Source of the DNA: an uncultured Clostridia bacterium
GTDB taxonomy: Bacteria; Bacillota; Clostridia; Oscillospirales; Acutalibacteraceae
DNA: 64,000 nt
NCBI GenBank assembly: GCA_947625785.1
Contig: CANQPS010000013.1
Span: forward strand, 1-64,000
Reading direction: 5' to 3'
A program made the translations under genes and the position numbers. The notes below the pieces were generated by a model, which did not search any database, had not been told where the DNA came from, and worked only from the letters and a program-made list of their open reading frames with translations. Shown piece by piece: positions 2,969 through 56,963 of this stretch (position 1 is the stretch's first letter; every line of letters begins with the position of its first letter).

Positions 2969-4225
2969 ATATCCCATACACATTGAAAGACTCTGCTTAC
3001 CGTGAGTACCGGATTTTTTGAATAAAGTATCTAAATTAAAGGCTATTCTCGGCAAATATCCTAAATCCTCCAGAAGTGTAAATAAAGGAAAAAAGATTGC
3101 CATTGGAGGCAGCATTACCGATACTATCCAAGCAACTGTTCTATAAATACCATCTATAAAAATACCTTTAACTATATCATTAATACCAATATTAATGAAC
3201 AATTCACTCAACTTATCTTCTATAAAAAATAATCCTTTACTCAGCAGTTCAGAAGGGAAATTAGCACCAAATATTGTTATCCAGAAAATCAAGCCTAAAA
3301 ATAATAACATTATAGGTATTCCAAAGCGTTTTGAAGTTAAAATTTTATCTATTTTTCTGTCTTTTCTGTCATAGCAGCAATCACCCAGACAAACACACGA
3401 ATTATATATTTCTTCACTTCTGCTGACTATTGATGTAACAATTTTATCCCTCATAGATTCATATGTTAAATTATTATCTTTGAGAAATTCTTCTAATTCT
3501 GATAGTTCCTTATCAAGTAATTTAATAATATCATAGCCCAAATAATTATTCAAAGAATTATTGAAACTACTGTTTTTATCAATTAATCTTAGAGCTAACC
3601 AATGTATATCTATATTGATATTATTAATTTTATTTTTAATACCGGACTCTATTATACTAACCGCCTTTAATATATCAGAATCATAATTATGTTTTATATG
3701 AAAAATTTTTCTTTCGTTAGTTATTACACTTTCAATAGTATCTTTTAAATCTTTGATACCATATTTATTTCTTGCATTTGTTGCGACAACAGGCACTCCC
3801 AAATATAGCGATAATTCGTCTAAATCAATAATAATTTTCTTTTTTTCCGCCTCATCAATAAGATTTACACATATAATTACTTTTTTATTTAATTCTAATA
3901 TCTGTAATACAAGATTTAGATTTCTTTCAATAGCCGTAGCATCTACCACAACTACTATAATATCATTATCCTCAAAACAAATATAATCTCGTGCGACTTC
4001 TTCATCTTTTGAATTGGATAATAAGGAATATGTTCCGGGAACATCTACTATTTTATATTTTTTACCATTATGATTGTAGTAACCCACAGCACTCGAAATA
4101 GTTTTACCGGTCCAATTTCCTGTATGCTGTTTAAGTCCGGTTAAAGAATTAAAAATAGTACTTTTTCCAACATTGGGATTTCCGGCAAGAGCTATCGAAA
4201 TATAATCATCTAAATTATTACTCAC
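2957..4225 (-). pseudogene. feoB: feoB, ferrous iron transporter, truncated by the mobile element
   Basis: The N-terminal 422 residues of FeoB, the inner-membrane Fe(II) transporter with a cytoplasmic G domain. G1 is GNPNVGKST (about residues 15-23), G3 DVPGTYSL and G4 NLIDEA. The GDI region and the first membrane segments (IPIMLLFLGLIFWITIFGAN and the following helix) come next. The frame then reaches the highly conserved GKQSLSMCMG and runs into YIIL and a stop. Family members are about 650-720 residues and continue FGCNAAG after MCMG, so the remaining transmembrane part is missing and transport should be lost. GTG 4225 is preferred over TTG 4240 because AGGTGG precedes it. The missing 3' part should lie beyond the far end of the element. 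Confidence 0.88.
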
Positions 4226-52571: not shown

Positions 52572-53666
52572 TTATGCAAGAACTAATCGCATACCCTCGT
52601 TTCTGATGTTTATGGCTGCGTTTATATCTCTGTTATGATGTGTTTGACAGCAAAGGCAGATCCATTCTCGAACAGACAAATCTTTTGTTTCACTATTTTG
52701 GTATCCACAGACATTGCAAAGCTGTGAACTTGCAAAAAACTTATCAATCTTTACAAGTTTTTTCCCAAGTTCCTCCAACTTGTATTTCAGAAATGCCGTG
52801 AACATTCCCCAACCATTATCTGAAACAGATTTGCCGAAATTCAGAGCCTGTGCCATAGCCTGCATATTCAGATTTTCTATACATACACAATCATAGACAT
52901 TGGCTATCTGTCTTGACTGCTTGTGCAGAAAATCCTTTCTTTGGTTGGCAATTTTTTCATACAGTCTGGCAACTCTGATACGCTGTTTTTCTCTGTTCTT
53001 CGAGCCTTTCACCATTTTTGACAGTTTTCTTTGTTCTCTTTTCAGTTTCTTTTCGGACAATCTGTAATATCTCGGAAATCCGGAACAGTTTCCGTTGCTG
53101 TCAACATATAATGCGTGCATTGAGAAGTCAAGCCCTAAGAAAGTTTGCGGCACTTGTTCCTGTACTTGGTTTTCGTACTCAAAAAGAATACTTACAAAAT
53201 ATTTTCCGTTTGAATTCCGACTTACCGTAGCAGCTTTCAGTTTGTAATCATCAGGTATGTTTCTATACTGTTTCATTTTGACAAAGCCTAATTTCGGAAG
53301 TTTTATCATACCATCCCGAACAACAATATTTCCATTTACACAATTAGTTGTATAACTCCTTTTACTGCCCTTTTTTGACTTGAACTTAGGAAAACCCACC
53401 TTTTTATCTTTGAAAAAATTATTATACGCATCCTGTAAATTCATCTGTGCATTAGCAAGTGCAAGACTATCTACTTCTTTCAGCCACTCAAATTTAACTT
53501 TGTATTGTGCAGGGGTATTATTCAGTTTTTTCTGCGTTTGATGATAGTATTCTATTTTGTCACCCAACATCTTATTGTAGATAAATCTAACGCAGCCGAA
53601 TGTCTTTGCAATCATTGTGCTTTGCTCTTCATTCGGATATATCCTGAATTTATAGGCTTTGTTCAT
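52572..53666 (-). CDS. tnpB: TnpB, RNA-guided nuclease of an IS605-family element
   Basis: A 364-residue OrfB/TnpB protein. The N-terminus AYKFRIYPNEEQSTMIAKTF is typical of the family. The RuvC residues are intact: Asp180 in FLGLDFSMHALYVDSNG, Glu264 in VCIENLNM and Asp347 in HHNRDINAAINI. The zinc finger CNVCGYQN...CLCC (Cys317, 320, 337, 340) is complete. It should therefore be active. TnpB proteins are guided by omega RNA and cut donor sites to favour element retention. A promoter (TTGACT, 17 bp, TATTTT) precedes it on the minus strand. Confidence 0.93.
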   Translation of the reverse strand: MNKAYKFRIYPNEEQSTMIAKTFGCVRFIYNKMLGDKIEYYHQTQKKLNNTPAQYKVKFEWLKEVDSLALANAQMNLQDAYNNFFKDKKVGFPKFKSKKGSKRSYTTNCVNGNIVVRDGMIKLPKLGFVKMKQYRNIPDDYKLKAATVSRNSNGKYFVSILFEYENQVQEQVPQTFLGLDFSMHALYVDSNGNCSGFPRYYRLSEKKLKREQRKLSKMVKGSKNREKQRIRVARLYEKIANQRKDFLHKQSRQIANVYDCVCIENLNMQAMAQALNFGKSVSDNGWGMFTAFLKYKLEELGKKLVKIDKFFASSQLCNVCGYQNSETKDLSVREWICLCCQTHHNRDINAAINIRNEGMRLVLA

Positions 53667-54823: not shown

Positions 54824-56017
54824 ATGAATAATAATACTAAATCAGTTTTATTATGTGTATCAGGCGGCATAGCTTGTTATAAAATTCCTAATCTTGCAAG
54901 TATTTTAATCAAGAAGGGCTACGATGTAAATGTAATAATGACTGAAAATGCAACGAATTTTATTACCCAAAATACATTTGAAGCATTAACCCATAATAAA
55001 TGTATAGTTGATACCTTTGACAGAAATCATTCTTGGGAAATAGAACATATATCACTGGCTAAAAAATCAGATATTGTTATGATTGCACCCGCAACCGCTA
55101 ATATAATAGGCAAAATTGCCAACGGTATAGCTGACGATATGTTGACAACAACTGTACTTGCTTGTAAATGTCCAATATATATTGCACCGGCTATGAATTC
55201 CAATATGTACGAAAATACAATAGTTCAAGATAATCTTCTTAAACTTAAAAAATTCGGATATAAAATAATATCTCCAATATATGGGCATCTGGCTTGTGGT
55301 GAAAACGGAAACGGAAAAATGCCCGAGCCATCTGAACTGTATCAATATATCGAAAAAGAACTGGCATTTAATAAAGATATGCAGGGACTTAATGTATTGG
55401 TTACAGCAGGTGCAACACAAGAATCAATAGACCCTGTAAGATATATAACAAATCATTCCTCAGGTAAAATGGGTTATGCGATAGCCAAAAATGCTATGCT
55501 CAGAGGTGCAAATGTAACATTAATAAGTGGTCAAACATCATTACCCAATATTCCTTTTATAAAAAATATCAAGGTAGTATCCGCACAAGATATGTTTGAA
55601 AGTGTTAAAGATAATATAAATCAATGTGATATATTAATAATGTCCGCAGCAGTAGCAGATTATACGCCTTTAAATGTAAGTGATAATAAAATAAAAAAAT
55701 CAGACGATAATATGTACATATCTCTTAAACGCACAACGGATATTCTTCGATATGTCGGGGAAAATAAAAGGAACAATCAATTTATATGTGGATTTTCTAT
55801 GGAAACCGAAAATATGATTGAAAATTCAAAAGCTAAATTGAAAAATAAAAAACTTGATATGATAGCTTGCAATAATCTTAAAACAGAAGGTGCGGGATTT
55901 CAGGTTGATACAAATGTTATAACATTAATCACAAATGACGGTCAAATAGAATTTGGATTATTAAGCAAAGAGGATACAGCTAAAAGGCTACTTGACGAAA
56001 TAATTATAAGATTATAG
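54824..56017 (+). CDS. coaBC: Bifunctional phosphopantothenoylcysteine decarboxylase/phosphopantothenate-cysteine ligase CoaBC
   Basis: A 397-residue bifunctional enzyme of coenzyme A synthesis. The N-terminal flavin-dependent CoaC domain has SGGIACYKIPNLASIL, the catalytic His region WEIEHISLAKKSD, PAMNSNMYEN and the cysteine in HLACGENGNGKMPEP. The C-terminal CoaB domain begins LVTAGATQESIDPVRYITNH and keeps NKKLDMIACNNL. Full length, with its own AT-rich upstream region; the -10 candidate is TATGATAT. It is monocistronic, followed by a long structured region. Confidence 0.95.
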   Translation: MNNNTKSVLLCVSGGIACYKIPNLASILIKKGYDVNVIMTENATNFITQNTFEALTHNKCIVDTFDRNHSWEIEHISLAKKSDIVMIAPATANIIGKIANGIADDMLTTTVLACKCPIYIAPAMNSNMYENTIVQDNLLKLKKFGYKIISPIYGHLACGENGNGKMPEPSELYQYIEKELAFNKDMQGLNVLVTAGATQESIDPVRYITNHSSGKMGYAIAKNAMLRGANVTLISGQTSLPNIPFIKNIKVVSAQDMFESVKDNINQCDILIMSAAVADYTPLNVSDNKIKKSDDNMYISLKRTTDILRYVGENKRNNQFICGFSMETENMIENSKAKLKNKKLDMIACNNLKTEGAGFQVDTNVITLITNDGQIEFGLLSKEDTAKRLLDEIIIRL

Positions 56018-56089
56018 AAATTCAAATAATTACTTTTTCAAAAATCATTAAACAAAAATAGGTTTCACTCCTTGCCCAGAGCGACCAAA
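56018..56089 (+). other. Short spacer between coaBC and the multi-hairpin element
   Basis: AT-rich sequence followed by a sharp rise in GC at about 56071. No gene or terminator with a T-run is seen directly after coaBC. Confidence 0.4.
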
Positions 56090-56292
56090 GGCTCTGCCCT
56101 CGGCTAGTGGGACTTCGCCCCACACCTCATAAGGGCTCCGCCCTTAACCCGCAAGCCTTTTGAAAAAGGCTTGACCGAAAACTTTTACCCTTAAAAAATT
56201 AAAAGTTTTTGAGAGTTTTAAGAGAACTTTTTTCAAAAAGTTCTCTTAACAGGTCGAGGGCAGAGCCATCGTGGGGTGTGGGGCAAAGCCCC
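56090..56292. repeat. Compact multi-hairpin element with interleaved long-range pairing
   Basis: The outer stem GGCTCTGCCCTCG (56090-56102) pairs perfectly with 56255-56267. Inside are GTGGG/CCCAC (56107-56123), AAGGGC-TCC-GCCCTT (56131-56145), AAGCCTTTT/AAAAGGCTT (56153-56172), AAAACTTTT/AAAAGTTTT (56178-56209) and a perfect 13-bp stem AAGAGAACTTTTT (56220-56232 with 56235-56247). Just outside is GGGGC-AAA-GCCCC (56280-56292). In addition GCCCCACACC (56117-56126) pairs with GGTGTGGGGC (56275-56284), across the outer stem. It may be a structured RNA or a repetitive mobile element. Confidence 0.65.
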
Positions 56293-56328
56293 GCTAATAA
56301 AAATACGAATTTTAGAATAAAAAAACTC

Positions 56329-56495: not shown

Positions 56496-56759
56496 ATGCT
56501 AAAAGAAGAAAAAAATGCTATTATCGCTCAATATGCCCAACACGAGGGTGATACAGGTTCTCCGGAAGTTCAAATAGCTCTTTTAACAAAAAGAATTAAT
56601 GACCTTACCGAACACCTTAAAACACACAAAAAAGACCATCATTCCCGCAGAGGTCTTTTGAAAATGGTTGGTAAAAGAAGAAATCTTCTTGCTTACTTAA
56701 CTAAAGTCGATATTGAAAGATACCGTAGTATTATCGCAAGATTAGGTATCCGTAAATAA
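56496..56759 (+). CDS. rpsO: 30S ribosomal protein S15
   Basis: An 87-residue ribosomal protein that binds the central domain of 16S rRNA. The family core is complete: [40 protein letters not shown] and [15 protein letters not shown] 56496 with AAGGTGG eight bases upstream is chosen; the in-frame GTG 56484 lies inside that site. The rpsO-pnp order is conserved in many bacteria. Confidence 0.97.
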
Positions 56760-56774
56760 TTTTTACGCTCATAT

Positions 56775-56801
56775 AGGCAGATAGTAATTTGCTATCTGCC
56801 T
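56775..56801 (+). terminator. Hairpin terminator after rpsO
   Basis: AGGCAGATAG (56775-56784), a 7-nt loop and CTATCTGCCT (56792-56801) form a perfect 10-bp stem followed by TTTAT. Some read-through to pnp is likely. Confidence 0.7.
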
Positions 56802-56856
56802 TTTATGATAATAAAGAATAATTTATTTAATATATAGGCGTTTGGATTTAGCAGTT

Positions 56857-56891
56857 AAACAAAACTTCAAATATAATTTAAAGTTTTGTTT
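56857..56891 (+). terminator. Second hairpin in the rpsO-pnp gap (terminator or pnp leader)
   Basis: AAACAAAACTT (56857-56867) and AAGTTTTGTTT (56881-56891) pair perfectly over 11 bp with a 13-nt loop. A T-rich end follows. It could be a second terminator or a processing site in the pnp leader. Confidence 0.5.
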
Positions 56892-56963
56892 TATTGCTAA
56901 TATCTTGCCCTATATTTAATCAAAATTATTTATAAGCATAATTTAATTGGAGGTTAAATATTA

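Follow-up and report, generated by a model that had tools for sequence, protein, structure and literature searches.

A short GC-rich sequence between a CoaBC-like gene and the ribosomal protein gene rpsO raises the question of whether a structured RNA or a repeat of the genome occupies this intergenic region. The window is a stretch of 64,000 nt from the genome of an uncultured Clostridia bacterium, and its GC content rises from ~0.25-0.30 around the element to 0.56 within it. The first-pass annotation, made from the sequence alone, had described a GC-rich element with several hairpins in AT-rich DNA, and this description stands: seven hairpins span 56109-56292, and one more, accessory, lies at 56071-56104. 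The core of the element (56107-56294, + strand) is a ~188-bp imperfect palindrome with the hairpin order a-b-c-d-e-b'-a'. The outer palindrome arms of the window copy are 56105-56149 and 56252-56296, and the near-self-complementary core GGCnnnGCC is common to every GC-rich module. The features of the locus are as follows.

54824..56017, + strand: upstream gene, an open reading frame of 397 aa, presumably CoaBC-like (named by recognition); relatives are 57-64% identical
56071..56104, no strand assigned: accessory left module CTTGCCCAGAGCGACCAAAGGCTCTGCCCTCGGC, which contains segment A and is missing from most copies
56107..56294, + strand: element core, of which the genome has ~45 copies
56109..56121, + strand: hairpin a, GGGACTTCGCCCC (family form GGGGCTTTGCCCC)
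56122..56129, + strand: left spacer ACACCTCA, with 56272-56279 as long-range partner; the spacer columns are 91% paired
56130..56146, + strand: hairpin b, TAAGGGCTCCGCCCTTA, with pair-keeping changes on both sides at 5 of 7 pairs
56152..56173, + strand: hairpin c, CAAGCCTTTTGAAAAAGGCTTG, the module best conserved across genera and the base of covariance model R1
56178..56209, + strand: central hairpin d, AAAACTTTTA...TAAAAGTTTT, the dyad axis
56218..56249, + strand: hairpin e, TTAAGAGAACTTTTTTCAAAAAGTTCTCTTAA, mirror of c; its 15 nt arms are 100% complementary, and it is 99% paired
56255..56271, + strand: hairpin b', CGAGGGCAGAGCCATCG, which contains segment A'; two pairs show changes on both sides in 6 sequences
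56272..56279, + strand: right spacer TGGGGTGT, the start of segment B'
56280..56292, + strand: hairpin a', GGGGCAAAGCCCC
56496..56759, + strand: downstream gene, an open reading frame listed from GTG 56484, which we take from its sequence to be rpsO, encoding ribosomal protein S15

Two other potential structures lie nearby. Between rpsO and a pnp-like open reading frame, a 139-nt imperfect palindrome (56803-56941) matches its own reverse strand at 63.5 bits and is unrelated to the hairpin chain. Ahead of rpsO, the segment 56403-56450 (CGGTCTGGGGACTAAGCCGCTATCATCGGATTTCACCTACCCC) may, by its appearance, be a candidate structured S15 leader; in Rfam it matches no family at gathering.

The region 56071-56300 has a minimum free energy of -117.1 kcal/mol on the + strand (z -10.6) and -123.8 kcal/mol on the - strand (z -11.7). 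None of 200 shuffles folds as well, and the real region is ~10-12 SD better on either strand. Such stability would suit a functional structured RNA, either a cis-regulator or an sRNA, possibly with the pseudoknot that the first-pass annotation had drawn from four segments. The segments themselves are as described there: A' (56255-56267, CGAGGGCAGAGCC) is the exact reverse complement of A (56090-56102, GGCTCTGCCCTCG), and the same relation holds between B (56117-56126, GCCCCACACC) and B' (56275-56284, GGTGTGGGGC); along the sequence the four follow the order A-B-A'-B'. The pseudoknot, however, falls away. The minimum-energy fold is a long hairpin that includes B-B' and bears side arms c, d and e; A-A' is not used in it and is missing from the family consensus as well. 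We rejected the A/A'-B/B' pseudoknot because segment A belongs to the accessory module and is non-complementary in the nearest copy. In that copy (L002, 96% identical) the segment at the place of A is GGGCAGAGCC (GGGCAGAGCCATCGGC), which has the same sense as A', so that A-A' pairing is impossible there. The segment order is explained by the self-complementary core shared by the GC-rich modules, through which each can pair with several others. The accessory module (AGAGCGACCAAAGGCTCTGCC, 56071-56104) is otherwise found with the copies at contigs C30 and C9 and in relatives; GAGAGCGACCAAAGGCTCTGCC is shared with the window copy only by the copies at the starts of C30 and C9, and it also forms the 5' hairpin of G030-type repeats.

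The suggestion that the sequence might be a repetitive element of the genome was borne out. When the 250-bp region was compared by BLAST with the source genome (2.30 Mb in 39 contigs), it gave 93 matches, a number that includes reverse matches of the palindrome, and the best non-self copy is 96% identical. The covariance model R1, built on hairpins b, c and d, finds 45 copies. Copies occur in both orientations and some are in tandem, including a near-identical triplet with a 193-bp period at C15 and further tandem copies at C1, C5 and C9. Their alignment gives the modular plan GGGGCTTTGCCCC - ACACCCCA - b - ACCCG - c - ACCG - d - e - CGGGT - b' - TGGGGTGT - a', from which outer modules have been lost or replaced in several copies, and the ends differ from copy to copy. 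Judged by open reading frames rather than curated genes, no copy lies inside a long gene; ~5 sites are divergent, two are convergent and the rest co-directional, and the neighbouring genes vary among copies. From these comparisons, the palindromic sequence with its ~45 copies is not an RNA of a single locus and is very likely a dispersed DNA repeat rather than a functional RNA.

This placement also bears on a role as a bidirectional transcription terminator or a stabiliser of mRNA 3' ends, maintained for the benefit of the host. The window copy lies 50-90 nt after coaBC and ahead of rpsO, and its hairpins are strong. Nevertheless, the family is intergenic in all orientations, including the divergent sites, an arrangement that disfavours both a terminator and a 3' UTR RNA: at several sites both neighbouring genes run away from the copy, which leaves nothing there to terminate. 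The element also has no hairpin followed by a T run, unlike the likely rpsO terminator at 56773-56803. We regard a terminating or stabilising role as very improbable.

The stems of the element display strong covariation. Pairing in the local hairpins reaches 96.6% across 24 distinct copies from the source genome. Of the 57 local pairs, 11 have changed in both partners, against 4.4 +/- 1.3 in shuffles (0/500) and 0-4 with slid partners. For the rival long-range pairing of b with b' the figure is 83%, which is near the shuffles. Compensatory changes, which the first-pass annotation had named as support if present in A/A' and B/B', do occur, but they are located in the local hairpins, and the accompanying wobbles are strand-symmetric, unlike those of RNA. 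An RNA under selection tolerates G-U pairs and does not tolerate A-C. As a control, 22 tRNAs in the same DNA follow this pattern in their acceptor and T stems, with 24 G-U against 0 A-C. The element stems, though they covary, do not: the source genome holds 19 G-U cells in 11 columns versus 22 A-C cells in 15 columns, and four genomes of three genera, when pooled, hold 51 G-U cells in 32 columns versus 53 A-C cells in 42 columns, all these cells being drawn from related sequences and their counts not representing independent events. Because G-U is about as frequent as A-C, against 24 to 0 in the tRNAs, the constraint or correction appears to act at the level of DNA and not of RNA. The stems would then be maintained as DNA, either because folded single strands are under selection or because arms and copies correct one another; since the cells are non-independent, the symmetry makes a strong case for this reading but not a final one. 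Functional RNAs made from both strands could likewise produce symmetric wobbles.

The very stable fold and the covariation of local stems are what a functional structured RNA has in its favour. It is opposed by the strand symmetry of the wobbles relative to the tRNA control, by the lack of conservation of A-A', by copies that occupy divergent promoter regions and point either way relative to genes, and by the change of neighbouring genes between copies. Rfam gave no gathering match either, only weak sub-threshold ones to unrelated families (plastid, miRNA and others), including those at E<=1. The new structured RNA that the first-pass annotation had considered is accordingly unsupported, and we judge such a function highly improbable. 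As a sign of a merely passive repeat, the same annotation had named many decayed copies and no covariation; copies are indeed many and several have decayed, but covariation is present.

Changes at shared sites can be followed between two close species, G109 and G206, which are 92-94% identical over tens of kb. Their same-site differences comprise gain, loss, duplication and replacement of modules. The shared sites provide 805 stem pairs, in which 17 double changes preserve Watson-Crick pairing and 49 changes are single; the double changes are counted in both directions, and therefore correspond to ~9 independent events, with a few located in hairpins that align poorly. Well below one would be expected from independent mutation. 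The single changes are again symmetric (17 G-U, 14 A-C). Swaps of module alleles (CAAGCC/GGCTTG, CAAGCT/AGCTTG) suggest conversion between copies. This pair of species yielded no clean single insertion and no empty site with an exact joint, and congener empty sites could not be drawn from the source genus, which has no other genome. G064 and G024, also considered for empty sites, are 71-74% identical and too distant.

The R1 search found the core in 10 of 60 near relatives. Within the family, hairpin chains based on the core are present in 50 of 200 genomes and 35 of 122 genera; judging by the organisms named for the CoaBC hits, these are probably gut/rumen Clostridia. Copy numbers differ sharply within one genus, where five species carry from 126 to at least 150 copies and a sixth carries 3, counts that reach 150 being lower bounds. 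The chains are specific to genera: G011 has a ~215 nt repeat beginning GTAGGTCG, and G024 has long chains around AAGGGGCTTTGCCCCTT, of which its congener G060 has a shorter, ~90-nt form. The part common to genera is hairpin c followed by GACC(G/T)AAACTTT. The nearest CoaBC found belongs to RUG10751 (uncultured Ruminococcus, MAG), which carries six copies of the element in 13 kb. One of them lies right after coaBC, in the orientation opposite to that of the window copy and with a different downstream gene; it is best read as an independent insertion. In G024, several tandem repeats of a tail AATTGTCACAGCTATACAGAGAGAAAATCATTCTAGCTGT follow one element (L224, C11:12000-13200). Contigs of the copy-rich genome G062 (L306, L308-L311) end a few to tens of bases from an element; with so many contig ends at repeats, the repeat probably fragments assemblies of these bacteria.

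How such copies spread was sought in enzymes, carriers and insertion marks. MITEs are non-autonomous, bear inverted repeats and reach high copy numbers, and in these respects the element resembles them. Palindromic ends, copy number and intergenic placement would fit a MITE of a DDE transposon, with terminal inverted repeats and target-site duplication. Yet target-site duplications do not exceed the shuffled expectation in 19 copies of two genera (p 0.90), a lack that is equally expected of very old copies. The ends, moreover, are variable between copies, and the partial copies examined have neither a transposase with matching ends nor an autonomous parent flanked by element ends near them. 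A MITE origin is therefore improbable.

REPINs, or REP doublets with their RAYT transposases, are inverted hairpin doublets, extragenic, dispersed and non-autonomous, that form clusters and tandem arrays (PMC3116915, Bertels and Rainey 2011). The architecture of the element is closely similar: an extragenic palindromic unit of inverted doublets that folds into a hairpin, dispersed, non-autonomous, clustered and at places in tandem arrays. Together with the absence of target-site duplication and the IS200/IS605 genes of the source genome, this likeness would favour a REPIN-type element moved by a RAYT or by an IS200/IS605 Y1 transposase. The enzymes speak against it. No RAYT exceeds the curated cut-off in any of 60 genomes, although the E. 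coli positive control was detected. The Y1 transposases of the source genome are of IS200 type; the presence of Y1 does not correlate with copy number, and Y1 is absent or broken in the copy-rich G011, G060, G061 and G062. The GTAG/CGTC foot is likewise absent from own-genome copies, whose ends are mostly an A/T-rich flank and then GCGGGGC; G011 repeats do begin with GTAGGTCG, but there GTAG sits inside the stem. Movement by these enzymes is thus unlikely. Because RAYT and tag, two defining features, were tested and not found, we do not file the element as a REPIN, from which it also differs in having several distinct hairpins chained together in each half, with a total of ~188 bp and more in relatives.

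IS200/IS605-type genes do occur near copies. The minus strand of the window encodes a TnpB at 52572-53666, 2.4 kb from the element (NF040570, with NF038281 just below its cut-off), and a second TnpB with its TnpA is found in L143 (C16). On the same contig, a truncated copy (L172, G000:C16:60000-65048, ~3242-3516) lies ~170 bp from an IS605 TnpA gene; this proximity may be accidental or may mean that the IS prefers hairpins. A carrier search of plasmids, phages and IMG/VR gave no match. Of the 6 copy-rich genomes, 4 carry reverse transcriptase genes, compared with 16 of all 60 (G000-G059; hypergeometric p ~0.04), an over-representation that is not significant after three tests and comes with no visible mechanism, and is at best a weak lead.

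The element is probably a non-autonomous, REPIN/BOX-like dispersed hairpin-chain DNA repeat, composed of two inverted half-elements joined at a central A+T-rich hairpin. Since no RAYT, Y1 link or carrier was found, nor an autonomous parent near the partial copies examined, we infer the mechanism of its spread. Hairpins would form in single-stranded DNA, on the lagging strand or during repair or transposition, and the folded strand would be copied or inserted in trans by some enzyme, leaving no target-site duplication. That single-strand transposition in trans is the means of spread we propose with some doubt. Once in place, copies may become more alike and be rearranged through recombination, gene conversion and hairpin-templated repair. 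Between coaBC and rpsO the element would be passive; if it affects the 3' end of coaBC at all, it would do so incidentally. A bolder reading, which we offer tentatively, is that of a superfamily of hairpin-chain mobile DNA in about a quarter of the species of the family, moving without RAYT or target-site duplication, its stems kept perfect as DNA by the very mechanism that moves or repairs it; on that reading the paired changes would be concerted and not RNA-selected.

BOX elements are modular, with a variable number of modules, and the present repeat likewise combines its modules in varying number and arrangement. Pneumococcal BOX is intergenic, has extensive secondary structure, is presumed parasitic and is patchy between sister species (PMC3049150, Croucher 2011), all of which applies here; BOX belongs to streptococci, and the lineage and core here are others, a separation made by description and not by sequence. 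GTAG- and CGTC-tagged REPs are 20-40 bp units with an unpaired tag, located mainly downstream of genes, and the CGTC class has no dedicated transposase (PMC3733652, Di Nocera 2013). The element shares with them short palindromic units, high copy number and larger structures formed by pairing of opposite units, but its multi-hairpin chains are untagged and also occupy divergent regions; for a palindromic repeat that has no transposase of its own, CGTC REPs are a precedent. Neither the core sequences nor a description of such a repeat was found in the open literature, subscription journals lying mostly outside the search. The element is best called a member of the bacterial palindromic dispersed repeats, in a family apparently undescribed so far.

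Covariation is usually taken as proof of RNA structure. In these bacteria strong covariation occurs together with strand-symmetric wobble, a combination that points to DNA. Wobble symmetry is a cheap test that could prevent repeats of this kind from entering annotations as new RNAs, and the hairpin chains provide a natural system for hairpin-templated correction.
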